Shown: positions 1,778-57,190 of the stretch, piece after piece
Position numbering within the stretch: position 1 is the stretch's first letter
Layout of the letters: each line of letters opens with the position of its first letter
NCBI RefSeq assembly: GCF_003473485.1
Contig: NC_053046.1
Span: 1,374,001 to 1,438,000, forward strand
Length of the DNA: 64,000 nt
Origin: Medicago truncatula
Taxonomy: Eukaryota; Streptophyta; Magnoliopsida; Fabales; Fabaceae
Direction of reading: 5' to 3'
The notes under the pieces: generated by a model
Databases searched by the model: none
What the model was told of the DNA's origin: nothing
The model's input: only the letters and a program-made list of their open reading frames with translations
Position numbers and translations under genes: made by a program

Positions 1778-2937
1778 AGGCTCGAGTTTTGATCCTCTAT
1801 TTAAGATTTTTCTTTATCTTTCTTATGTAAATTTAGAGAATCAAAAAAGGGAACTCTTGAAAAAAGTTGAAATCTTTTTGGAACAGATTTAGGATGTGAA
1901 AAATCTTGAAAGTGAAAATCATTGGCTTTTAAGAGGGTAAAATACAAAAATTTATGGGACGTTTTTGTATAACATTAAGAACGAAACTTCTTTCGGAAAA
2001 AGTTAGATCAAGTGAGACAAATTCTATCGATCGAGATCATCATAATCAACAAAAAAAAAAATTAAAATACTTTTAAGTAAAATCTATAGACAGAATTTTT
2101 TATCTCAACAAGTATGAAGTTTAGGGTATATTAATGCGGGCTTATGCATGCTAGGTTGCCCGACCAGACTAGCCAATCCCGATGCATCCTTTTCCACTTG
2201 TGATGGACTCTAATTATTTTACTTTGTTGGCTGAATTTTTTGTCCCTATAAATATATCAAATTTTCAATTTAGTTCTTCTACTATAATTTCTTCTGAAAT
2301 TAATTTAGTCTCTATAAAATTTTTAATTATCATTTTTTGTCTTTATTTTTGAGTCAACTCTTACATTGATACATGTTCTTAGTGAACAAAATATGTATGT
2401 AGATTTTATGGCTAAGGAAAGATCAGACATGCAAGGTGCTCTGCTCTCCGCCTTACATGGAATCAGTCATCCCGAGAGATAAGCTTATAACTTAATTTTG
2501 TTTTTTCCCTCTTTTTTTGTTGTTTTTTTTTTTTGCCTCGTTACATTGTAACACTACAAAAAAAAGCATACAATCTCATGATTGTCTTTCTGTTTTTTTG
2601 TTACGTTAATATTTGTAAATTATAAACAATATTTTTCATATGAAAAATTAATGAAAAATAAAAAAGCTGAAGTTTTTGCCTTGCGACTTATTCAAATTTG
2701 AAAATGGTCAGTAAACTCTTGGTAAGTTTCATTGAAGAAGATGAGATCAGGAATTCTTCTAGGCTTCTTATAGGTTGTGTCTCTCATGATCTAAATATTT
2801 TTTTAAAGTAACAGAAAAAAGTGGATATCAATAAACTATACAATGATCGTTATCAAAAACTTTGCTACCTTGACTATTTAATGAATTAAAAAGTTACAAG
2901 TACGTTTTCCAATAACTAGTGTTTGAATCAGATGCAC

Positions 2938-2946
2938 TATAAAATA
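2938..2946 (+). promoter_or_regulatory. TATA box of CYP76 copy 1
   Basis: TATAAAATA lies 85-93 bases before the ATG at 3031. The same box with the same flanks (GATGCACTATAAA, then AGGACACTCTAG) occurs before copies 2 and 3, which supports it as the core promoter. Confidence 0.65.
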
Positions 2947-3030
2947 GGACACTCTAGTGAACCCAAAGCATCACAGCAGAAGTTTTAATAATAATCTTCT
3001 TATATACATCCTTTTTTACTTGTGTTCTAA

Positions 3031-4852
3031 ATGGCAACAATACCATATATGGATTTTCTGAGTTATATACTTATGTTCTTGTTAATATTCATTGTTACAC
3101 AAGTTTTTTACTCATTATTTGCAACCAAAATGAGAAACAAAACTAACTCAAAACTTCCACCAGGACCTTTCCCTCTTCCCATAGTTGGAAACCTCTTTGT
3201 AATGAACAACAAACCACATAAATCATTAGCCAAACTTGCCAAAATTTATGGTCCAATATTAACTTTAAAGCTAGGTCAAGTAACAACCATAGTTATCTCT
3301 TCGCCCGACATGGCCAAAGAGATACTCCAAACACATGATTCTTTACTTTCAGACCGAACTGTACCACATGCTTTAACCGCTTTCAACCACGACCAATTTG
3401 GCGTGGGATTCCTTTCTCTTTCGCCTCTTTGGCGAGAGATGCGAAGGGTATGCAAAAATCAACTATTCTCTAATAAGAGTCTTGATGCAAGCCAATATCT
3501 CAGGCGTGGGAAGATAGATGAACTCATCAATTATGTTTCTCAATGCAGCCTAAAGGGTGAAGCAATAGATATGGGAAAATTAGCTTTTAAGACTTCAATT
3601 AATTTGTTGTCTAATACTGTTTTCTCTGTAGACTTTGCTAATAACAAGGATTTGGTTATGGATATGTCGGAGACGGTTGGATCTCCAAACATGGCTGATT
3701 TTTTTCCATTGTTGAGGTTGATTGATCCACAAGGCATCAAAAGGACCTATGTGTTTTATGTAGGAAAGTTGTTTGGTATCTTTGACAACATAATCGATCA
3801 AAAGTTGAAATTGCGAGAAGGGGATGGTTTTGTCACCAACAACGATATGTTAGACTCCTTGCTCGCTGAAGAAAACAAAAAGGAGTTGGACAGAGAAAAA
3901 ATTCAACATTTACTACATGTATTTTCTAATCTTACTATTTACAATTATGATGTTTGATATCTATTTTTTTTCCACTTTATCCGCATCTCTCTCAATGGAC
4001 TTGGATCCTCTCCGGTCCCTTCCTTTCTCTCAGGCTACTCGACGGTTGCAATTTTATTGGAGAGACAGGAGGGACAATAAAGGATCTAAAAACCTATATG
4101 TGTGTATGTGCGCACATGCGCATATCATATGTCATGTTTTAAATTTTAATAATGTTTTAATAAATTATACCATGAATACTTTTCTAGATTTTATTCACTA
4201 TAAAACTTGCAATCTAATGGTTGGTTTATAATAACAGGATCTACTTGTTGGAGGAACTGATACAACTACATATACATTAGAATGGGCAATGGCTGAACTA
4301 CTTCACAACCCAAATGTAATGTCAAAGGTTAAAAAAGAACTTGAAGAAACCATTGGAATAGGAAATCCGATTGAGGAATCAGACGTTACTAGACTCCCTT
4401 ACTTGCAAGCAATAATAAAGGAAACCTTACGCTTGCACCCGATAGCTCCACTTTTGCTCCCTCGAAAAGCAAAGGAAGACGTAGAAGTCAATGGCTACCT
4501 CATTCCAAAAGGTGCACAAATTTTCGTTAATGTGTGGGCTATTGGTAGAGATCCAAAAGTATGGGACAATCCAAATTTATTTTCGCCAGAGAGGTTTTTA
4601 GGAACAAAGCTTGATATCAAGGGACAAAATTTTCAGCTCACGCCGTTTGGCAGTGGAAGGCGAATATGTCCCGGCTTGCCTTTGGCTATGAGGATGTTGC
4701 ACATGATGTTGGGATCATTACTAATTTCTTTTGATTGGAAGCTAGAAAATGGTATGAAACCTGAAGAAATAGACATGGAAGATGCAATACAAGGACTTGC
4801 CTTGAGAAAATGTGAATCCTTGAGAGTTATTCCAACCAAAATCAGTAATTAA
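3031..4852 (+). CDS. Cytochrome P450, CYP76 type (copy 1)
   Basis: A microsomal heme-thiolate monooxygenase. Exon 1 is 3031-3918, the intron 3919-4237 (GT-AG) and exon 2 4238-4852, giving 500 aa. An N-terminal membrane anchor (about residues 9-30) precedes the proline hinge PPGPFPLPIVGN. The I-helix oxygen-binding motif GGTDTTTY opens exon 2. The ExxR motif is KETLRLHP, the PERF motif SPERF, and the heme loop FGSGRRICPG with the cysteine ligand. Family knowledge: CYP76 enzymes often hydroxylate monoterpenols such as geraniol, but the substrate cannot be read from sequence. Compared with copy 2 it lacks about 9 residues before the FG region (after VDFANN) and 3 near the end of exon 1. It is nearly identical to copy 3. 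All key motifs are intact, so it is probably functional. Confidence 0.93.
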
Positions 4853-4967
4853 ATTCCCTACGTAGCAACTTGTAATTCTTTTACGTGTATTTCAATAAAT
4901 GGCCTGTCAAGGAAATTAGACATAGCAGTGTGAGTAAACATAGACATGATCAATAAATAATAATAAA

Positions 4968-7004: not shown

Positions 7005-8548
7005 TCATATAATTTTATATATCTGTGCATGTTCAATGATCTTCTGCATGTATTCGATTATGATTGATTTGTTATCAAAGGAAGACCGTACGAAATGGAA
7101 ATAATGCATTCGAGGTTTTATTTCAATATTTTTCGAGCCATGTAAAACATCCATTTTGGACTTTGAATATGAATGCAATCCTATCCTATACTCATTCAAA
7201 ATTGAACGACGGTACATATAATTCCTATACGTACGTATAAGAAAATATATTGACTTTGGGCAATCCTATCTAGAGACTATTATATAATTTAATTTATTAG
7301 CATGTACAATGGAGACTATTATATGCTTTAATTTAGTCTGTAAAAGTTACATCGTTTTTTAAACAACTTATGTTAAAAAAATTGATGTGTCCCTTATGTA
7401 CACTATGTATGTATGTTTAGCCCAAACTCAATGATTGGTATACATGAAGAAGAAAAATATGTGTTGAGTCCTTAATTTGTTGTCAAACTTTTAAAGGATT
7501 TATATGTAGTAACTAGAGTTTCATGACATGTAGATCAGTCATAGAACTTCATGTTTGTACAAGTAAGATAGGCTAAACACACCATTCCTATCATGTAGTG
7601 TAAATAATAAAAAATGTCAACTTTTTATTTATTTTAAAGAATGTGTTTTATAGGTTGACATCAAGGAACTAAATTGTTAAAAAAAAAAAAAAACTAAAAA
7701 TATTAACTTGTTATAAATATCTAAAATAATCGTGTGATGTATTTGACCTAAATTCGTAATATAGTTTCTTGTCGTCGGTAGATTGTCGGTCACGTCATGT
7801 TTGACTTTTGGATTGAGAACAAACAGTTTGTATTTAAGATGGGTAATTTTCATATTTTAAAAATAAAAAACTAGCAAATTCTAAGGTACATTCAAAAATT
7901 TGAGTGTGCGAGTACACAAAAAATATAGTTAATTTATAAATTTATGAAGGAAAAGTACCGGTACACCTTAATTTATAAGGTGTACCGTAGAAGATCCCAA
8001 AAAACTATATTGAAATTTGACCCACACTAATGTTGTGATTGCATTAATATTACAAAATATTTACATCAGGCAATCCAATTTCATACTATTCATAGTTGTT
8101 GAACTTAAAAAACTGTGCTTTTCAATCCCAATTTTTGCTGCAAGTTCATTCAGTAAATTTTATTTGGCAAAATTTTACATAACCTTTTTTTTTACCTAAA
8201 TGTACATGGTAAAAAAAATCTGGGAGCTAAAGTTTTTGCCCGGCCCTGTGATTTACTCAAAATTGATATTTTCTGTTAGTAAACTCTTTGTAAGTCTCAT
8301 CTTAAATTTACTAACAGGCTTCTCATGATCTATGTTGTTTTTAAAAATAAAACTGGATCATAACATAACATTGAATTATTCAATGATCATTAACAAATAC
8401 ATGTGCATATATGATTTTAATGAATTAAAAAATTACTAATGTTTGACTCAGATGCACTATAAATAGGACACTCTAGTGAACACAAAACATCACAACAGAA
8501 GTTATAACAATCTTCTTCCATATACATCCTTTTTTACTTGTGTTCTAA
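7005..8548 (+). promoter_or_regulatory. Upstream region of CYP76 copy 2
   Basis: The block 7070-7200 resembles the block upstream of copy 1 at 930-1040. The last ~330 bases are homologous to the region before copy 1. A short palindrome at 7955-7990 (stem around CGGTACACCTTA) looks like a small MITE remnant. No gene is seen. Confidence 0.5.
8458..8465 (+). promoter_or_regulatory. TATA box of CYP76 copy 2
   Basis: TATAAATA lies about 85 bases before the ATG at 8549, in the same flanking context as the boxes of copies 1 and 3. Confidence 0.65.
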
Positions 8549-9617
8549 ATGGCAACAATACCATATATGAATATTCTGAGTTATATACTTATCTTCTTGT
8601 TAATATTCATTGTTACACAAGTTTTTTACTCATTATTTGCAACCAAAATGAGAAACAAAACTAACTCAAAACTTCCACCAGGACCTTTCCCTCTTCCCAT
8701 AGTTGGAAACCTCTTTGTAATGAACAACAAGCCACATAAATCATTAGCCAAACTTGCCAAAATTTATGGTCCAATATTAAGTTTAAAACTAGGCCAAGTA
8801 ACAACCATAGTTGTCTCTTCGGCCGACTTGGCCAAAGAGATACTCCAAACTCATGATTCCTTACTCTCGGACCGTACCGTACCTCATGCTTTAACCGCTT
8901 TCAACCACGACCAATTCGGGGTTGGATTCCTCCCTCTTTCGCCTCTTTGGCGAGAGATGAGAAAAGTATGCAAAAATCAACTATTCTCCAACAAGAGTCT
9001 TGATGCAAACCAATGTATTAGGCGTACAAAAATAGATGAACTCATCGGTTATGTTTCTCAAAGGAACCTTAAGGGTGAAGCAATAGATATGGGAAAAGTA
9101 GCTTTTAGGACTTCAATTAATATGTTGTCAAATACTATTTTTTCTGTAGACTTTGCTAATAACTCTGCAGGTACTAATGAAAATAAAGAGAATAAGGATT
9201 TGGTTATGAATATGGCAGAGACGGTTGGAAAGCCAAACATGGCTGATTTTTTCCCATTATTGAGGTTGATTGATCCACAAGGCATCAAAAAGACCTATAT
9301 GTTTTATATTGGAAAGTTGTTCAATGTCTTCGACAACATAATCGACCAAAGGTTGAAGTTGCGAGAAGAGGATGGTTTTTTCACCAACAACGACATGCTA
9401 GACTCCTTGCTCGACATTCCTGAAGAAAACAGAAAGGAGTTGGATAGAGAAAAAATTGAACATTTATTACATGTATTTTCTAATCCCTTACTACTATTAC
9501 ACTCAAATTGTTTGATATCTCTTTCTCTTGTGCACTTTGTCTACGCCTCTTTCTATGGACTCGAATTCTCTCCGCTCCCTCCAGTCTCTCGGTCTAATCT
9601 AATCCGTTGGATTAATC

Positions 9618-9654
<37 letters not shown>

Positions 9655-10541
9655 GATCTCTCTACTACTAGATTAATCAGACTGTTGCGTTTTTATTGAA
9701 GAGACATGAGGGACAATAAACATTCTAAATATCTATAAGTGTGCGCGCACTTGCGAGTGTCGATTGATATTATATGTCATGCTTTAATTTTTAATGATGT
9801 TTTAATAAAGTTATATGATGAAGAATCAATTATTTTTTGAACTATATGAACTTTTGTACATTTTATTTATTTATAAAAACTTTCAATCTAATAGATTATA
9901 ACTATTGTTACCATTGTTTATAACAGGATCTACTTGTTGGGGGAACTGATACAACTACATATACATTAGAATGGGCAATGGCTGAACTACTTCACAACCC
10001 AAATATAATGTCAAAGGTTAAAAAAGAACTTGAAGATACCATTGGAATAGGAAATCCACTTGAGGAATCTGATATTACAAGACTCCCTTACTTACAAGCA
10101 GTAATCAAGGAGACCTTACGCTTGCACCCGATAGCTCCACTTTTGCTCCCTCGAAAAGCAAAGGAAGATGTAGAAGTCAATGGCTACACCATTCCGAAAG
10201 ATGCACAAATCTTCGTTAATGTATGGGCTATTGGTAGAGACCCAGAAGTGTGGGACAATCCATATTTATTTTCACCAGAGAGGTTTTTGGGAACAAAGCT
10301 CGATATCAAGGGACAAAATTTTCAGCTCACGCCGTTTGGCAGTGGCAGACGAATTTGTCCCGGTTTGCCATTAGCTATGAGGATGTTGCACATGATGTTG
10401 GGATCATTACTAATTTCTTTTGATTGGAAGCTAGAAAATGATATGAAACCTGAAGAAATAGACATGGAAGATGCAATACAAGGACTTGCCTTGAGAAAAT
10501 GTGAATCCTTGAGAGTTATTCCAACCAAAATCAGTAATTAA
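8549..10541 (+). CDS. Cytochrome P450, CYP76 type (copy 2)
   Basis: Exon 1 is 8549-9472, the intron 9473-9926 and exon 2 9927-10541, giving 512 aa, the usual plant A-type P450 length. The reading frame runs open past the true donor, but exon 1 must stop at ...LLH for exon 2 to continue DLLVGGTDTTTY. The membrane anchor, PPGPFPLP hinge, KETLRLHP, SPERF and FGSGRRICPG are all intact. It keeps the SAGTNENKE segment and the DIP tripeptide that copies 1 and 3 have lost, so it probably keeps the ancestral form. The intron carries a (GA)n tract at about 9622-9652. It lies in direct orientation 3.7 kb after copy 1, a tandem duplicate. The substrate is unknown. Confidence 0.93.
9620..9653. repeat. (GA)n microsatellite in P450 copy 2 intron
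   Basis: About 15 uninterrupted GA units. They are absent from the corresponding introns of copies 1 and 3 and help make this intron 454 rather than 319 bases. Confidence 0.9.
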
Positions 10542-11072
10542 ATTCCCTACGTAGCAACTTGTAATTCTTTTACATGTATTGCAATAAATGGCATGTATAA
10601 GGAAATTAAACATAGTAGTGTGAGTAGACATACATGATGAATAAATATAATGGCTTGACCAAGCCCACTTAGATGTTTAATACATAAAAAATGAATAGTA
10701 GAAGCATATAACCAGAACAAAATTGTCATCCATTTCATGAGTACTAAAATGTGTTGTCTATTAGTAATTTTTGTAGCCATAAGCTCTAATCTGATTTACT
10801 GTTTATAAAGATCAGCAACATAGTTAATCAAACCTTTTAGAAAATTAGAGTAGGCCTTTATGGTTTACCAAGTTACTATGTGAAAAGAAATTTTATCAAT
10901 CTTTAAATATAAAACAGTGCACTAATCTTCAAAACAGATAAATTGTTCAGACTAAGTCTAGTTTAGTTCCTCTATATAACCAACTAAACATACAAACTAA
11001 AAAGGGTCGTATCAGGTTTGAGTAACTAATGACTCACTATGAGATGAGAGACATTATAGTCACCATTTGCTT

Positions 11073-19805: not shown

Positions 19806-20880
19806 AAGAGAACATATGCCTCATTTCTGATAGACATGTGTCGATAAAGAGCGCGTATGATGATCCACAGAATGGATGGCACGATGCTCCGACAAGCCAT
19901 GTTTATTGTGTCCGACACATTGCACAAAACTTTATGAGATCATTCAAGGATGGAGAACTAAAGAAGAAAGTTGAATGCATGGGTAAAAATCATATCTCTT
20001 TCCACGTAAATTCGACATTTTATTTGTTTAAAATGACACATCTAACTTTTTTCAAAACAATGCAGGTTACGCCATGAACATCCCTACATTCGAATACTAC
20101 CGTTCTGAAATTGCTGTTGCAGACCGAAAGGCTTTAGCATGGGTCGACAATATTCCCAAACAAAAGTGGACTCAATCACATGATGATGGTCGACGATGGG
20201 GCCATATGACAAGTAACTTGGTAGAGTCACAAAACAACGTGTATAAGGGTATTCGAGGACTTCCGATCACAGCTATCGTGAAAGCATCATATTACAGGTT
20301 GGCGGCCTTGTTTGCTAAAAGAGGACATGAGGCAGCGGCAAGGGTAAATTCTGGTGAGCCATTCTCCGAAAACAGCATGAAATATCTCAGGAATGAGGTG
20401 ATTAAATCCAACAGTCATCATGTCACTCAGTTTGACCGGGATCGATTTACCTTTTCCGTCCGTGAAACCATAGATCATAAAGAAGGATTGCCAAAGGGAG
20501 AATACAAAGTGGACCTGCAAAATAAATGGTGTGACTGTGGACGGTTTAGAGCGTTACACCTACCATGCTCACATGTCATTGCCGCATGTTCTAGCTTTTG
20601 TCACGACTACAAGACTTTTGTCGATAACAAATTCACAAATGAGTGTGTATACGCCGTATACAACATCCACTTCGACGTGGTTCACCACCAGACATATTGG
20701 CCTAATTATGAAGGACCGAAGGTGGTTCCCAACAAGTCAATGCGTAGGGCAAAGAAAGGTCGTCCACCAATTACTCGCATTAGGACCGAGATGGACGATG
20801 TGGAAACTGAGAGAAGATGCGGTGTTTGTAGGATGACTGGTCATTCCCGCAAAGATTGCATTAATATTAGACATCAGTAG
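19802..20880 (+). CDS. MULE transposase (mudrA type), 5'-truncated
   Basis: Exon 1 is 19802-19982 and exon 2 20066-20880, separated by an 83-base GT-AG intron; together about 331 codons. It starts abruptly at PQENICLISDRH just after an in-frame TAA at 19796-19798. Visible are the catalytic-core block ISDRH followed by YCVRHI, the NLVESQN block, the SWIM zinc finger WCDCGRFRALHLPCSHVIAAC (split pattern CxC...CxH, about residues 238-258 of this fragment) and a C-terminal CCHC knuckle CGVCRMTGHSRKDC. The N-terminal MuDR domain and the first part of the DDE core are absent, so transposition activity is unlikely. There is no convincing ATG at the start; the first in-frame one is in exon 2. Confidence 0.85.
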
Positions 20881-20917
20881 AAATTTAGTCTTTATTTTGT
20901 TTATAGGATGTCTAGTG

Positions 20918-20977
20918 ATTAATATTATTATTATTATTAATATTATTACTATTATTATTATTATTATTAATAATTAC

Positions 20978-21020
<43 letters not shown>

Positions 21021-21080
21021 ATTATTATTATTATTATTATTAATAATAATTACTATTATTATTATTATTATTATTAATAA
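20918..21080. repeat. (TTA)n microsatellite
   Basis: About 160 bases of TTA/TAA repeats with occasional ACT interruptions, between the transposase stop and the nested MITE. Confidence 0.9.
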
Positions 21081-21082
21081 AA

Positions 21083-21447
21083 GGCTAAAATATGGTTTTG
21101 GTCCCTGCAAATATGTCTCGTTTTGGTTTTAGTCCCTGTAAAAAAAAATTGTTGTTTTTGGTCCCTGCAAAATATTTTGTTTTTGGAAATAGTCCCTGCA
21201 GGGACTATTTCCAAAAACAAAATATTTTGCAGGGACCTTTTTCAAAATCAAAAGATTTTGCAGGGACTATTTCTCTAATAAATGGTTCAGTCATCATGTG
21301 ACACGTGTGCAAATTATCACAAAAGTGGAGCCAGGGACCAAAACCAAAATGAGACATATTTGCAGGGACCAAAAACAACAAAAAATTTTTGCAGGGACTA
21401 AAACCAAAACGAGGCATATTTGCAGGGACCAAAACCATATTTTAGCC
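21083..21447. mobile_element. Mutator-type MITE nested in the MULE
   Basis: 365 bp with an exact 9-bp target duplication TTAATAAAA (21074-21082 and 21448-21456). The inverted ends are GGCTAAAATATGGTTTTGGT and its complement. Almost the whole element is built from TTTTGGTCCCTGCAAA-type units in inverted order. It inserted at the edge of the MULE's right terminal repeat. It is non-coding; open frames here are repeat artefacts. Confidence 0.9.
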
Positions 21448-21452
21448 TTAAT

Positions 21453-21828
21453 AAAATTAAAAAAAAAAAACAAAAAACAAACCCGCAAGCCCCACTTGCG
21501 GGGTATTAAAAAAATTTAAAAAAAAAATTAAGCCTACCCCGCAAGTGGGGGTAGCAATCTATTAATTTAAAAAAAAAAAAAAAAAAATATAGGCGTGTAG
21601 TGTAGTTATAGTTATTTAATTTTTTTTTTTTTAAAAAAAAAAAAAAAAGGAGGCCGCAAGTCCCACTTGCGGGGTAGTTAGTTTTTAAATTTTTTTTAAG
21701 GTACCCCGCAAGTGGGGGTTGCAAGGTATCAGTAAATTCTGAAAAGTAGGGCATTTATGCAATTTTTTTCAAAACTAGGGCATTTTTGTATTTTTGGAAT
21801 TAAATAAGGGCAGAAAAAAAAAAATTTC
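21453..21828 (-). repeat. Right terminal inverted repeat of the MULE
   Basis: Inverted match to 17839-18215. Its outer end is AAAAATTTC next to the target duplication. Confidence 0.9.
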
Positions 21829-34207: not shown

Positions 34208-36040
34208 TATCTTCTTATATATTAAATCTGTAAGTCCTAATTTTAACATAACCACGCTCACACCTAATCTCATATTTTTATGAACTGTTTTAATCTTAAT
34301 GCTCACACCTAATCTTCTATTTTCATGAACAACCGTAGTATTCTCACCTAATCTTCTTATATACTAGACTTTCACAAAAACAAATCTCAATGCATATCAA
34401 AGAGAATGAAATATGTGGTCCCAAATATATGCAGATGTTGGAATTCGAACCTCAAACACCACACTTGTTCACCTTAAAAATATTAATTTTTATCAATCGT
34501 GTGTTACTTCATTCTTTTGTTAAATTTATATGTCAATGTTATATTATTGGTATGTTACTTCATCTTTTTTTTTTTGACAAAATGTTACTTCATTCTTTTG
34601 TAAAAATTATATGGTAATGTTATATTATGTACCTAAAAATAGTTCATTTTTAACCTCAACATGTAAAATGTTTTATTTAAATAATTTTCCTTTTATCGAA
34701 TATTTGGCATTTACCGTAAATGATACCCTTTAACTATTTGTTGAAATGTTTCTTCCACCTGTTTATATAGATTGCAAAATTCTTGTGCATTTTGTGGTAG
34801 ATATTTAACAAAGAGAGTTCAGTTCTAATTTGGATGAAAAGTGTAATATTAACAAAAAAAATGTTTCTATAATCTTTCAAAACCCTTTTATTCCAATAGG
34901 GCGATTTGTTTTGTTGAAGAAATAGGACGATTTGTTTTGAAGAAATAGGGGAAATAAAGCGATGCCGATTTGCTTTGTTCATGAACATAGGAGATTAGGT
35001 GTGAGCATTAGGGTTGTTCATGAAAATAGGAGATTAGGTGTGAGCATTAAGATTAAAACAGTAAAATTATGCAATAGAGTTTAGGTTAAAATTAGGGCTT
35101 ACGGGTTAACTTTAATATATAAGAATAACCCGTAAGCTCTAGATTAACCTGAACCCTATTGCATAATTTAACTGTTTTAACCATAATGCTCACACCCAAT
35201 CTCCTATTTTCATGAACAACCCTAATGCTCACACCTAATATTTTTATATATTAAAGTTAACCCGTAAGCACTAATTTTAACATAAACTCTATTGCATAAT
35301 TTAACTGTTTTAACCCTAATGCTCACACCTAATCTCCTATTTTCATGAACAGCCCTAATGTTCACACCTAATCTCCTATATTCATGAACAAAGCAAATCA
35401 GCATCGCTTTATTTTCCCTATTTCTTCAAAACAAATCGTCATATTTCTTCAACAAAACAAATCGCCATATTGGAATAAAAGGGTTTTGAAAGATTATAGC
35501 AACATTTTTTTTGTTAATATTACACTTTTCATTCAAATTAGAACTAAACTCTCTTTGTTAAATATCTACCACAAAATGCACCTGAATTTTGCAATCTATA
35601 TAAACAGGTGGAAGAAACATTTCAACAAACAGTTAAAGGATATCATTTACGGTAAAGGCCAAATATTCGATAAAAGAAAAATTATTTAAATAAAACATTT
35701 TACATGTTGAGGTTAAGAATGAACTATTTTTAGGTACATAATATAACATTAACATATAATTTTTACAAAAGAATGAAGTAACATTTTGTCAAAAAAAGAA
35801 AAGAAGATGAAGTAACATACCAATAATATAACATTGACATATAATTTTAACAAAAGAATGAAGTAACACACGACTGATAAAAATTAATATTTTTAAGGTG
35901 AATAAGTGTGGTGTCTGAGGTTCGAATTCCAACATCTGCAGATATTTGGGACCACATATTTCATTCTCTTTGATATGCATTGAGATTTGTTTTTGTCTGC
36001 TACATCTGCAATGTATATGACCCGTGCGGCAGCACGGGTG
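34208..36040 (+). mobile_element. Non-autonomous Helitron-like element with giant internal hairpin
   Basis: A TC-type start (TCTTATATATTAAATCTG) lies near 34208. The right end has a perfect GC-rich stem-loop CCCGTGCGGCAGCACGGG at 36021-36038, a few bases before ATAG-T, close to the CTAG-T rule. Between them, 34372-35105 and 35184-35998 form a long inverted repeat. The motif CTCACACCTAATCTCCTATT recurs many times in both orientations near 34250-35380. No Rep/helicase is encoded. The class is inferred from the ends only. Confidence 0.5.
34372..35998. repeat. Long inverted repeat (arms about 740-810 bp)
   Basis: The left arm begins CAAAAACAAATCTCAATGCA and the right arm ends with its inverse near 35998. 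Matching continues through a TTCGAA-containing block, GTTACTTCATTCTTTTGT, and the AGGTGGAAGAAACATTTCAA block. The spacer is about 80 bases around 35105-35184. Open frames in one arm are mirrored in the other, which marks them as artefacts. Confidence 0.85.
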
Positions 36041-36060
36041 GAAAATATAGTTTTTTATAA

Positions 36061-39553: not shown

Positions 39554-39796
39554 TGTACCTTCCAACTGCAACAATTATCTTACCCCTGAATGGGGTAAAT
39601 TCAAACTTGCTAAACAGCAGGACTCTAGCATGCGATGAGCATCTTGAATGATGATATTCAAGTGTCAAAAGAATGTGGTGCATTCCTTGACACTTGAATA
39701 CCATCATTCAAAATGCTCATCGAATGTTGGCTTCCTGCCGTTTAACAAGTTTGAATTACCCCATTCAGAGGAAGAAAATTGTTGCAGTTGGACGTT
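39554..39796 (-). ncRNA. Hairpin 1 (candidate small-RNA precursor)
   Basis: Two ~115-base arms meet at a loop of only a few bases near 39676-39680. The innermost ~40 base pairs (around TTCAAGTGTCAA and TTGACACTTGAA) have only about four mismatches. The strand follows the neighbouring ORF and is assumed. Expression is unknown. Confidence 0.4.
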
Positions 39797-39797
39797 T

Positions 39798-40122
39798 GTA
39801 CCTCCCAACTACAACAATTGTGTTAACTTTGAATGGGGTAAATTCAAACTTGTCAAGCATGACTCCAATATTCGACCGACATTCCCAATGTTCCATTCAA
39901 AAGATTAAATTCTTGTTAGGCTGAGATTAAATGATGGTATTCAAATGTCAAAAGAATGAGGTTCATTCCTTGACACTTCAATACCTTCATTTAAACCAGC
40001 CTAACAAGAATTTAATCCTTTGACAGGAACAATGGGAATGTCGGTCGAATATTAGAGACCTATCGTTTGGCAAGTTTGAATTACCCCATTAAAAGGAAGA
40101 CAATTGTTGTAGCTGGAAGGTG
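39798..40122 (-). ncRNA. Hairpin 2 (candidate small-RNA precursor)
   Basis: A second stem-loop directly adjoining the first, with arms of ~155 bases and its apex near 39960. Outer arm segments (GGGGTAAATTCAAACTTG and CAAGTTTGAATTACCCCA) are the same as in hairpin 1, so the two are diverged duplicates. It begins just after the stop of the minus-strand ORF at 40137. Confidence 0.4.
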
Positions 40123-40136
40123 CATTCACTCCGTAC

Positions 40137-52900: not shown

Positions 52901-54000
52901 TGTTGGAACCCTGGTGTATATTGGGCAAAAATTTGGAGTATACTAGTTGTTATGTGGAGCCTTTGGAATGTAAACACAAGGATGAAGAAACTAGTGTAAA
53001 GTGTGAATTGAAAATTTTATGTCCCACATTGAGTAGATCACACACTCTAGTAGTGTTTATATATGTGGGATATCACTTCCAAGGGCTTGCGCCCTTGGGG
53101 TACCCACTTTTGTGAACGGAGTGAGCGCTTGCCAAAAATTATATATAAGACGCGCGACGACGACGCCGTCCGACCAGGCTTGGGCTTGGGCTTCAAAGAA
53201 ATACATTTTTTGGTGCTCAGAAAAATGAAAAAATAATTTTTTATAAGGACCAAGTCTCACACGTTTTCCACACGCGCACGTTTCCGCGTCGTGGGTTACC
53301 GTTACTGGGTCGTGGGCTAAGTTTGGCGGGTCGCGAACCGGGTCGTGGGCTAAGTTTGGCGGGTCGCGAACCGGGTCGGCGGAGTAAACGGAGTGAGCGC
53401 TTGCCAAAAATTATATATAAGACGCGCGACGACGACGCCGTCCGACCAGGCTTGGGCTTCAAAGAAATATATTTTTTGGTGCTCAGAAAAATGAAAAAAT
53501 AATTTTTTATGAGGACCAAGTCTCACACGTTTTCCACACGCGCACGTTTCCGCGTCGTGGGTTACCGTTATTGGGTCGTGGGCTAAGTTTGGCGGGTCGC
53601 GAACCGGGTCGGCGAAGTAAACGAGGTCAAATCCCCTCTATAAATAGAGAGCTCGGGAATGGGATTCTTCACTCCAAAACCGAGAATCGAATCCTCTTAT
53701 CTGGTTTTCTCCCCTTCTCATCTCCCTCGGTTTGTGTTGACGAACCGTTCTTTTCTTCCTCCTTCTTTGGTTTCTCGAGTGGTCTGCTACCATATTAGAG
53801 TGGTTTTTCGAAACCATATTGAGGTGTTATTCTCGAGCGATTTCTGGCAGTGCAGCCTTTAATCGTACAGTTAGAATCTGAGTTGTTTTATCTTGGAGAC
53901 GGCGCGGTTGCTAGTCTACCTTGCACAACTTAGGTAGTGCCGCGAAACGTCTTAAAGAAAGCGACCTGATCGTGACTCACCCCAGTAATAGTTTCAAAGC
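52901..54000 (+). mobile_element. Putative LTR-like sequence with duplicated promoter
   Basis: Starts TGTTGGAACCCTGG, an LTR-type TG start. It contains a stress-promoter-like GTCCCACATTG, two TATATATAAG boxes (53140s and 53410s), and a leader-like region to about 53990 with GGCAGTGCAGCC and GACGGCGCGGTTGCTAGTC. It resembles the U3-R-U5 order of plant copia LTRs, but the CA end, target duplication and primer-binding site were not fixed. Confidence 0.4.
53115..53625. repeat. GC-rich tandem duplication, period 272 bp
   Basis: 53115-53386 is repeated at 53387-53625 with few changes; both start AACGGAGTGAGCGCTTGCC. The first copy also contains an internal 33-base duplication (GGGCTAAGTTTGGCGGGTCG), which is single in the second. 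The block is CpG-rich against an AT-rich background. Confidence 0.9.
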
Positions 54001-54474
54001 TTTGTCGTAATTTTTCAAATTACAAAAACAACATGAAGTTTCACAGTAAGACTGCACTTATATATATTTTGACAATATATCAAGGATAAATTTAACAACA
54101 TTAAACTTCTATAACAAGAAATAGAAAGGGGAATAAAATACAATGGAAGCTTGAAAATAAAGGAAAACAAGCTAGCTCCATAATCAACATTATATATCAG
54201 ACACCTATATTTTATATGCTAATGTGTGTGAAGTTCGTGATACTTTTCCCCAAGGCCATAGTCAGTCATGTAAGAAGTTGAATAGGATAACAGTGCTGCT
54301 AAAAGAAATAAAGGCCTATCTATATGGTTTTCTACTTCCATTTTTTATTTTCCGGTAAAAATAAAAACATTTAACAAAGTGACATTTTTTCTTGTTAATG
54401 ATATCGAAAATCACAAATGAAAATAAAAAATATTCCCAATGTTGCCAAAAAATAAGATATGTATCATACCTTAT

Positions 54475-55025
54475 TTGCATTATGCCGAAAACCCATTAAA
54501 ATGTTTCCGGGCTTTATATCACGATGTAGAAGACACTGAAAGTGCATATACTCCGCTATGTTTATCTTAATGAAGTGGTATCATATTGAAGGCAAATCAG
54601 AAAAAACACTTTAACTTCATGTAAAAAAAAAAATGGTTTTCTTGATATTAAATCTATATTATTAGTTGAATTGCAAGCATCAAACTGTTTTTAACGAAAA
54701 CTTAATGTTGCAAAAGTTAAACAAGTTGTCGCGACTTGGTCCAAGAAATTCCAATAAGGTCAATAACCATGACCCTGTTGGACCAAGTCTCGATGATTTG
54801 TTTAACTTTTGCAACCATAAGTTTTCATTAAAAACAATGTTGATGATTGCTAATCAACTAGTAAGTATAGCTTTAATTTCAAGAAAATCAATTTTTTAAC
54901 ATGAAATTAAAGTTTTTTGTTTCTTTTCAATTTTCTTTCAACATGGTTACAAATTCATCTACATAAACGTAGCGGAGTATCGTGATAGAAAGCCCGAAAA
55001 AATTCTAAAGGGTTTAAGCCATAAT
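54475..55025 (-). ncRNA. CK1-derived inverted repeat, unit 1
   Basis: The minus strand of the left arm reads [20 protein letters not shown], and the plus strand of the right arm reads [20 protein letters not shown] then LMIANQLV. Both are hallmark casein kinase 1 blocks. The arms (about 54475-54740 and 54775-55025) are inverted copies of the same fragment, exon plus intron, around a ~35-base spacer. The right arm lacks about 22 bases near the HRD codons. It cannot encode a kinase. It is listed as a candidate precursor of double-stranded RNA; expression is unknown. Confidence 0.5.
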
Positions 55026-55029
55026 ACAA

Positions 55030-55615
55030 AAAAGATACGATTCATTAGATACCTTAATTGCATTATGGCCTAAACCCATTAGAATGTTTTTAGGCTTTAT
55101 ATCACGATGTAGAAGACCCTGAAAGTGCATATACTCCGCTATGTTTATCTTAATAAAATGGTATCATATTGAATGCAAATCAGAAAAAACAATTTAACTT
55201 CATGAAGAAAAAAAAAAAAAAGGTTTCTTGATATTATTAGTTGAATAGCAAGCATCAAACTGTTTTTAACGAAAACTTTATGTTGCAAAAGTTAAACAAG
55301 TGGCCGCGATTTGGTCGAAGAAATTCTAATAAGATCAATAACCATGACCTTGTTAGACCAAGTCTCGAGGACTTGTTTAACTTTTGCAACCATAAGTTTT
55401 CATTAAAAATAGTGTTGATGATTGCTAATCATCGAGTAGTAAGTATAGCTTTAATTTCAAGAAAATCATATATATTTTAATACGAAGTTAAAGTGTTTTA
55501 TTTTTTTTTATTTTCCTTCAATATGGTTACCAATTCACCTACATAAACATAGTGGAGTATATGAACTCTCGGGGGTCTTCTACATCGTGATATAAAGCCC
55601 GAAAATATTCTACAT
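55030..55615 (-). ncRNA. CK1-derived inverted repeat, unit 2
   Basis: A tandem copy of unit 1 with a period of 583 bases, diverged by roughly a tenth. It has the same arms: CATCAAACTGTTTTTAACGA on the left, and [20 protein letters not shown] read on the plus strand of the right arm. The right arm here keeps part of the region deleted in unit 1. Confidence 0.5.
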
Positions 55616-55683
55616 CCCAGTAAATAGGTTTGCATATAAATAAATAATAAAACCTAAACGGATCACAATAAAATAATTAATAC

Positions 55684-56110
55684 CTTTTTAACTGTATCGC
55701 AAAGCAAGTTGTCTTTGAGCGTTCAAAAAATGATTTCAACTATGGCTTCCACGGTTTCACGTAACCTAAAAATTATTCAAGACAACAACAAAAATTACTT
55801 AGTTTTAAAATATTCAAATGTAAAACAACTATAAATACCTTTTCATAAGAAGTTATGCACGACGAAAACAAATCGGTTGCAGATTGATAACAGAAAATCT
55901 ATCCAAAAAACCGCGAAATGGTGCAGATGGATAACACAAGATGTGGATCGTGTTTATGATACATGGATGATGATATGATGCAAATCACGAGAGAGATATG
56001 GATCTTGTTTTGGAATGATGAAGCACTATGGAGCTCTGAATGAGAGCGAGAAGAATGTGTATGTATGGTGGTGTGCTAGAGAAATTCTAAACCCTAATTC
56101 TTTGAAAAAA
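55684..56110 (-). other. Spliced leader-like exons upstream of the CK1 hairpins
   Basis: On the minus strand a leader beginning near 56100 (GAATTAGGGTTTAGAATTTC) runs to a donor AAAAG|GTATTT at 55839. A 73-base intron ends TTTTTAG and is followed by an 82-base exon 55765-55684 that closes with a donor AAAAG|GTATTA. This arrangement would carry transcription into the two inverted repeats. No long reading frame is present. It may be the 5' part of the ancestral kinase-related gene. Confidence 0.4.
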
Positions 56111-56149
56111 ATATATATAACTTCACCTAATTTTCTTGTACTCGTTTTA

Positions 56150-57190
56150 TGAGTTGGTGTCGGTATTTATATAATTATTAAGGTGTAGCTGACAAGGTAA
56201 AGAGATACTAAATTGATTGTAAAATAAATTACAATTGAAAATGTAATTACTGAAGTTAAAGTGTTAATTACTGAAATTGGTAAGGAGAGGATCCTAAATC
56301 CCTTTTTCTAAATAAATTGAAAATGTTAATTACTATAGTTTTGAACAAAACAAATAATATTACTGAATTCGAATGGTTAGTGATATGAGGTTCGACACAG
56401 TTGATTTTGCCCCGTGGTTGCTTTCAACCATACTTGTCCATATATTACTGAATTTGGACTTATTATCTCCGCTTGAGAAATCTGCTTAGGTTGATGTTTA
56501 AACTCTAATGTTAAGTTTAATCGGCAACAAATAAATTAGGTAGTTTACGCCCTTGCGGAAGTTGTCACATTATTAGCTAGTCCCATTACTTATTTTATTG
56601 TACCTCATTGTATTGAACATTTGATTTTTAATAAAATATTATAAACACGTTTTATTCAAAAAAATAAAATATAAATGCACATATTTCTGAAATTGGAGAC
56701 ATTCTATTGTAAAATAAATTACCATTAAAGCGATTTTGTATTACTATTATTTTCTTTCCTTTCACTGATTTTCCTTCCTTTGTTTTGTGCGGCGTGATGA
56801 ATGCATATAGTTCCATAGAGAGAGAGAGAAAAAACTTTTCTTTGTGATTGAATATTCCCTTATTTTTCCTTCAAAAAGAATATTCTCTTATTTTAGCTAT
56901 GCCTAGATTTATAATTTCTTTATTTATTTTTAAAAAATTGTATAGACATATAGTCCACAACTCCTAACTCAACTAATAAAAATAAGAAAATTGTTATCAA
57001 ACGTTTATCAATAAAAAAATAATTGTATCAAACATTATTTTCTTTTCGATGGATCTTACTATTTCATTTATCAAAAAAATTGTTTTTGCATGGACAACAT
57101 TTTTTTCTCCAACTTTGGGTTAGTTTGTGATTGGAATCTTCGGGACTATAATAATTGAAAACTGAAAACTAGGTAAAAAAATAAATATAA
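56150..57190. other. AT-rich intergenic region
   Basis: A short (GA)n patch lies near 56816-56831. No gene or well-bounded element was recognised. Confidence 0.4.

Follow-up and report, generated by a model that had tools for sequence, protein, structure and literature searches.

Can a fragment of a protein-coding gene that was copied beside itself in inverted orientation, and then copied again, act as a source of small regulatory RNAs, or is it a by-product of duplication that is now decaying? This question is raised by a block of casein kinase 1 (CK1)-like sequence in the window, i.e., the whole stretch of 64,000 nucleotides of Medicago truncatula DNA that was analyzed. A preliminary description had put forward the interval 54475..55615 as a young candidate small-RNA locus, in which a CK1-like fragment is present as an inverted repeat that is doubled in tandem. 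The block is real, although the homology already begins near 54456 and its clear part stops at 55612.

Architecture and duplication history of the block

The region 54456-55612 consists of four arms of alternating orientation: L1 (54456..54760, minus strand), R1 (54762..55048, plus), L2 (55045..55336, minus) and R2 (55336..55612, plus). When the arms are aligned in one direction, each of them comprises the GPSL exon, an intron and the HRDIKP exon of one CK1-like gene stretch, with homologous blocks of 273, 255, 265 and 290 nt, respectively. L1 carries a frameshifted GPSL exon, the intron and the HRDIKP exon up to the gt donor that follows ...NANK. R1 is its inverted copy, with an open GPSL exon, a gtaagt donor and an HRDIKP exon that is 24 nt shorter. 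L2 and R2 are the tandem copies of L1 and R1, and R2 has a frameshift before HRDIKP that was noticed by eye. The direct copies lie at 54447-54633/55030-55216 (88% identical, spacing 583) and 54656-54863/55231-55438 (92%, spacing 575). The inverted arms lie at 54686-54744/54778-54836 in unit 1 (88%, with a spacer of 33 nt) and at 55259-55322/55350-55413 in unit 2 (81%, spacer 27 nt). The inverted repeat and its tandem doubling, as described earlier, are thus found in the sequence, and a segment of a protein-coding gene that lies next to its own inverted copy is the anatomy of an hpRNA or proto-MIRNA locus.

The assignment of both exons to CK1 holds on matches to solved structures. The GPSL exon of R1 (54780-54860, plus) matched 38 distinct PDB sequences at E-values up to 1, the best at 1.6e-8, and the names listed among them all belong to the CK1 family or to yeast or fly relatives. 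For the HRDIKP exon of L1 (54470-54565, minus) the top match is the CK1-like chain 3sv0 (E 2.9e-5), which we take to be a rice chain; many other kinases rank behind it, because the motif is common to kinases. Pfam gave Pkinase for this exon at E 2.4e-5, below the cut-off (24.3 vs 31.7 bits), and no family for the 27-residue GPSL exon. The same PDB comparison shows that the protein letters of the arms depart from those of solved CK1.

A further CK1 exon (YMTDYGLGEKYHELHTH*HIKYR, with one stop) was found by tblastn at 54272-54204 on the minus strand, outside the hairpin and downstream of L1, in gene order. With an approximate plant CK1 sequence as the query, the match scores E 1.5e-4 (34.7 bits) with BLOSUM62 and E 7e-6 (39.6 bits) with PAM70; under both matrices, all of 300 shuffled queries stayed below it (best shuffles 33.5 and 32.8). 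As a search with 21 of its residues found nothing in the PDB up to E 10, the support for this exon consists of the tblastn score and its position. Upstream of R2 (55660-56500), the tblastn search for CK1 exons gave nothing better than E 9.5. The minus strand therefore reads as part of a CK1-like gene, in the order GPSL exon, intron, HRDIKP exon, intron, DYGL exon. Because L1 is collinear with the further exon, it is probably the founder, i.e., the best candidate for the original copy, lying in what appears to be a local CK1 pseudogene remnant.

The order of events can be read from the divergences. Between arms of the same type, the share of aligned sites that differ is 8.8% for L1/L2 and 11.7% for R1/R2 (K2P 0.093 and 0.128). 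Between L and R arms, the differences are 17.1% for L1/R1 and 16.5% for L1/R2 (K2P 0.194 and 0.187), and 20.7% for L2/R2 and 20.9% for R1/L2 (K2P 0.243 and 0.245). Since the L-R distances exceed those within a type, the inverted duplication is the older step and the tandem duplication the younger one, which is the order that the preliminary description implied. The four arms align in 229 columns free of gaps. Of these, 166 are invariant, 18 set the two L arms apart from the two R arms, 36 are private to one arm and nine show other patterns; not a single column separates L1 and R1 from L2 and R2, or L1 and R2 from R1 and L2. These columns thus give no hint that the arms of a hairpin were converted or changed in pairs, with the low power that four arms allow; paired change is the sequence signal that would speak best for kept pairing. 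Repeats, alignment, collinear exon and divergences together support an origin in which a fragment of a CK1-like gene was duplicated first in inverted orientation and later in tandem. The epithet young has to be qualified, as the arms within the hairpins are already 17% (unit 1) and 21% (unit 2) apart and have arm-specific frameshifts, deletions and lost splice donors, noticed in part by eye. Substitution rates in common use for plants are 0.7-1.5e-8 per site per year; at these rates the divergences would correspond roughly to 6-17 million years within a hairpin and 3-9 million years between arms of the same type, figures that give a scale only.

The same divergences could also be explained if the L and R arms were not copies of one sequence but two CK1 paralogues placed head to head, with exons that had already been conserved when the two came together. 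The exons indeed differ less than the intron in each of the four L-R pairs (GPSL 14-18%, HRDIKP 14-16%, intron 20-30%), and such origins have been proposed for some MIRNA loci, according to an excerpt of one report (PMC1790633). However, the difference between exons and intron is mostly not significant and the L-R changes in the exons mainly alter amino acids (15-20 nonsynonymous vs 5-7 synonymous), and we consider this alternative decidedly unlikely.

Predicted folding and the sequence surroundings

RNA from the block is expected to form a long stem beyond chance. Folding of each unit, a check that had been proposed for the locus, gave -230.3 kcal/mol for unit 1 (z -20.7) and -221.8 kcal/mol for unit 2 (z -21.4) on the plus strand, and none of 100 shuffles was as good in either case. 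On the minus strand, the whole block is predicted to fold as one nested palindrome of 1.1 kb, with an MFE of -482.6, a figure that stands without a shuffle control at that length.

A third, compact structure arises where R1 meets L2. This junction stem-loop (54979..55108, annotated on the minus strand; either strand folds) has arms at 54979-55037/55050-55108 that are 83% matched, a 10-nt terminal loop and the size of a pre-miRNA. The minus strand of 54960-55130 folds at -69.5 (z -11.7), and none of 200 shuffles was as good. Assignment to a known miRNA family was considered and rejected: the whole window has no Rfam match at the gathering score, and the junction matches below it are scattered over several different miRNA families and owe their scores mainly to pairing (best mir-2513, 45.2 vs 89 bits needed). 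A match to a known precursor family is not required of a new MIRNA gene. Tandem doubling might in this way have been a shortcut from a long hpRNA to a compact miRNA precursor, with the stem-loop of ~126 nt (54981-55106) formed between the older hairpins. The locus could then be midway in a shift from mixed siRNAs to a DCL1-cut miRNA aimed at the HRDIKP exon of CK1-like mRNAs, an idea that we regard as a long shot.

The stability of both units and of the junction relative to shuffles speaks for a working proto-MIRNA or hpRNA locus, whose diced small RNAs would keep at least one CK1-like gene of that genome in check. Moreover, each arm reproduces an exon, the intron and the next exon of CK1, sequence that resembles a leader is visible by eye on the minus strand, and the route is established, as Arabidopsis MIRNA loci show signs of an origin by inverted duplication (PMC1790633, in excerpt). 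The putative promoter- or leader-like stretch (55684..56173, minus) has TATATAAATA at 56173-56164, 5'-UTR-like sequence and gt/ag-like exon borders near 55838, 55766 and 55683, all noticed by eye. The minus strand of the window carries TATAWAWA at 89 sites, which makes TATATAAATA a weak promoter lead. The region 55600-57000 contains 36 ORFs of at least 25 amino acids; the one that was scanned (55899-56072, minus, in the leader) matched no Pfam family. A scan for bacterial-type promoters and terminators, which is of no use for plant DNA, gave 11 promoter-like sites vs 13.9 expected and was set aside. Upstream of the leader-like stretch, 56251-56265 is a perfect 15-nt inverted match to the L1 intron (54605-54619), which may be chance in AT-rich DNA.

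Strong hairpins are common in the window. Among 212 overlapping plus-strand segments of 600 nt (median -118.4), the one at 54601 ranks fourth (-228.0), behind those at 39601 (-303.3), 34801 (-268.5) and 21001 (-259.5). The listing of palindromes, which covers pairs with centres less than 1500 apart, includes one of 1.6 kb at 34374-35996 that is 91.8% self-complementary and exceeds the CK1 hairpins in both length and quality of match. Just to its right, at ~36010-36050, lies a small GC-rich hairpin that by eye presumably resembles a Helitron 3' end. Two adjoining palindromes (85% and 83%) occupy 39561-40124, where the 39601 segment is the strongest of all folds, and at 20032-21469 a fragment of a SWIM zinc-finger protein is followed by a self-complementary tract of 411 nt (71%) with 31-nt tandem repeats.

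Several of these features would suit an origin in which a transposable element (a MITE, Helitron or Pack-MULE) captured the CK1 fragment and the palindrome is the body of the element: there are several other large palindromes, and the SWIM-domain fragment (20032-20877, by Pfam) is, we assume, MULE-transposase-like. On the other hand, CK1 gene order runs on past the left edge of the hairpin, no inverted repeat longer than 60 nt encloses the block (self-comparison, E 1e-5), and a finer scan of 53600-56600 found only pairs of 15-18 nt around it. Elsewhere in the window, the other arms aside, just two short stretches match the L1 region, both weakly (17 and 36 nt; E 0.009 and 0.033). Capture by an element is quite improbable on this evidence.

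Other duplications and genes were observed in the window as well. A cytochrome P450 gene region is present twice in opposite orientation (2724-4925, plus, and 48406-46165, minus; 94.5% identical, ~41 kb apart). The self-comparison also shows it a third time, at 8365-10651 (85-87%), and P450 was identified by Pfam. Some 850 nt to the left of the CK1 block, 53115-53611 holds 1.8 copies of a 266-nt tandem repeat (96%) with a perfect 33-nt repeat inside. About 1.7 kb from the block, inverted repeats of ~240 nt (57289-57527/58545-58782, 93%) enclose ~1 kb and are possibly those of a non-autonomous transposon. Lastly, Pfam places a Plant mobile domain protein among the genes of the window.

Constraint or decay in the four arms

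Sequence change within the arms bears on whether the locus has been kept. Pairwise dN/dS ranges from 0.48 to 0.98 over 47-58 codons with few changes. By eye, both L arms have a common frameshift in the GPSL exon, whose splice donor is lost, and both the 24-nt deletion of R1 and the frameshift of R2 fall inside the HRDIKP exon. When gap columns were kept, three of four comparisons gave longer runs of invariant columns than the shuffles did. With gap columns removed, they were not clearly longer in any of seven comparisons (smallest fraction 632/10000), and the idea of a conserved core was dropped. In L2/R2, the exons vary less than the intron does (p 0.023, uncorrected), which would fit a kept similarity to a CK1 target; the other six comparisons gave p-values of 0.066-1.0. 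Changes that keep G-U pairing make up 14 of 22 transitions if the minus strand is transcribed and eight if the plus strand is (p 0.29). L1 has three private changes vs 12 in L2 (p 0.035, uncorrected). Exact 21-mers are shared by L2 and R2 (seven) and are absent between L1 and R1, the two arms of one hairpin; at the HRDIKP motif, L1, L2 and R2 have five 21-mers in common. No coding or pairing constraint is detected in the separate divergence of the four arms. Taken together, the tests look like neutral decay, at a power that is low for weak constraint.

These results weigh against a working proto-MIRNA or hpRNA locus: no paired change is seen, the arm protein letters depart from solved CK1, and L1/R1 lack a common 21-mer, though L2/R2 have their seven. 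Such a function is unlikely in our judgment. The locus is not filed as a MIRNA gene; its anatomy is that of an hpRNA. A regulatory role is unproven, and trans regulation of an intact CK1 gene, while possible, is not what the sequence suggests.

The reading that we favor, and consider fairly probable, places the block among inverted-duplication loci of the kind already known. It would be a side effect of duplication that can yield small RNAs incidentally and is by now in decay. In the proposed course of events, the first part of a CK1-like gene stretch on the minus strand would have gained an adjacent inverted copy, R next to L. The hairpin would then have been doubled in tandem into L1-R1-L2-R2, after which the four arms would have diverged separately. 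If the block is transcribed, the minus strand would be favored, from the leader-like sequence near 56173. Its RNA would form long, imperfect dsRNA, to be cut by DCL2/3/4 into mixed siRNAs of 21-24 nt, which perhaps act mainly on the locus itself via DNA methylation. As a counterpoint to decay, the predicted stems would still be strong dicing substrates.

If transcription and dicing do occur, the block would illustrate, in ordered steps, how a fragment of a plant gene turns into a source of small RNAs: an inverted copy, then a tandem copy, with a compact junction hairpin as by-product. If not, it would be a useful caution that hairpins made from genes can form and decay while having no function, and three other places in the same 64 kb give stronger folds.

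Comparison with known inverted-duplication loci

Among the matches listed in a literature search, none was earlier work on a casein-kinase inverted repeat. An exact pattern search for plant relatives in a collection of genome contigs gave no matches, and 18-mer matches in six viral contigs were taken as chance. Comparable systems are described in papers of which excerpts are drawn on here. According to these, both MIRNA and siRNA loci have been born by inverted duplication of gene sequences (PMC1790633, PMC3237417); within a set of 48 non-conserved Arabidopsis families, signs of such an origin from protein-coding sequences are seen at 16 MIRNA loci (PMC1790633). Like the loci of Fahlgren 2007 (PMC1790633), the CK1 block has hairpin arms with extended similarity to a coding gene, in this case with the intron included, but its arms are 255-290 nt long and tandem-doubled, and any small RNA, DCL dependence or target of the block is putative. 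Arabidopsis IR71 shares the long fold-back RNA that is expected to feed DCL2/3/4, and perhaps local hairpins of the DCL1 type. IR71 gives ~3 kb of dsRNA from which mainly 22- and 24-nt RNAs have been demonstrated, whereas the CK1 block is a 1.1-kb sequence (PMC12825306). The siRNA loci SULF of Antirrhinum and YUP of Mimulus are similarly taxon-specific and derive from inverted or incomplete duplication of coding genes, but both have targets and phenotypes, which sets them apart from a block described at the level of its DNA (PMC12371187). Mu killer of maize is likewise a partial inverted duplication, the hairpin RNA of which has been proposed to come from read-through transcription. Its source is a transposase gene and its silencing has been demonstrated, whereas the source of the CK1 block is a kinase gene (PMC3440606).
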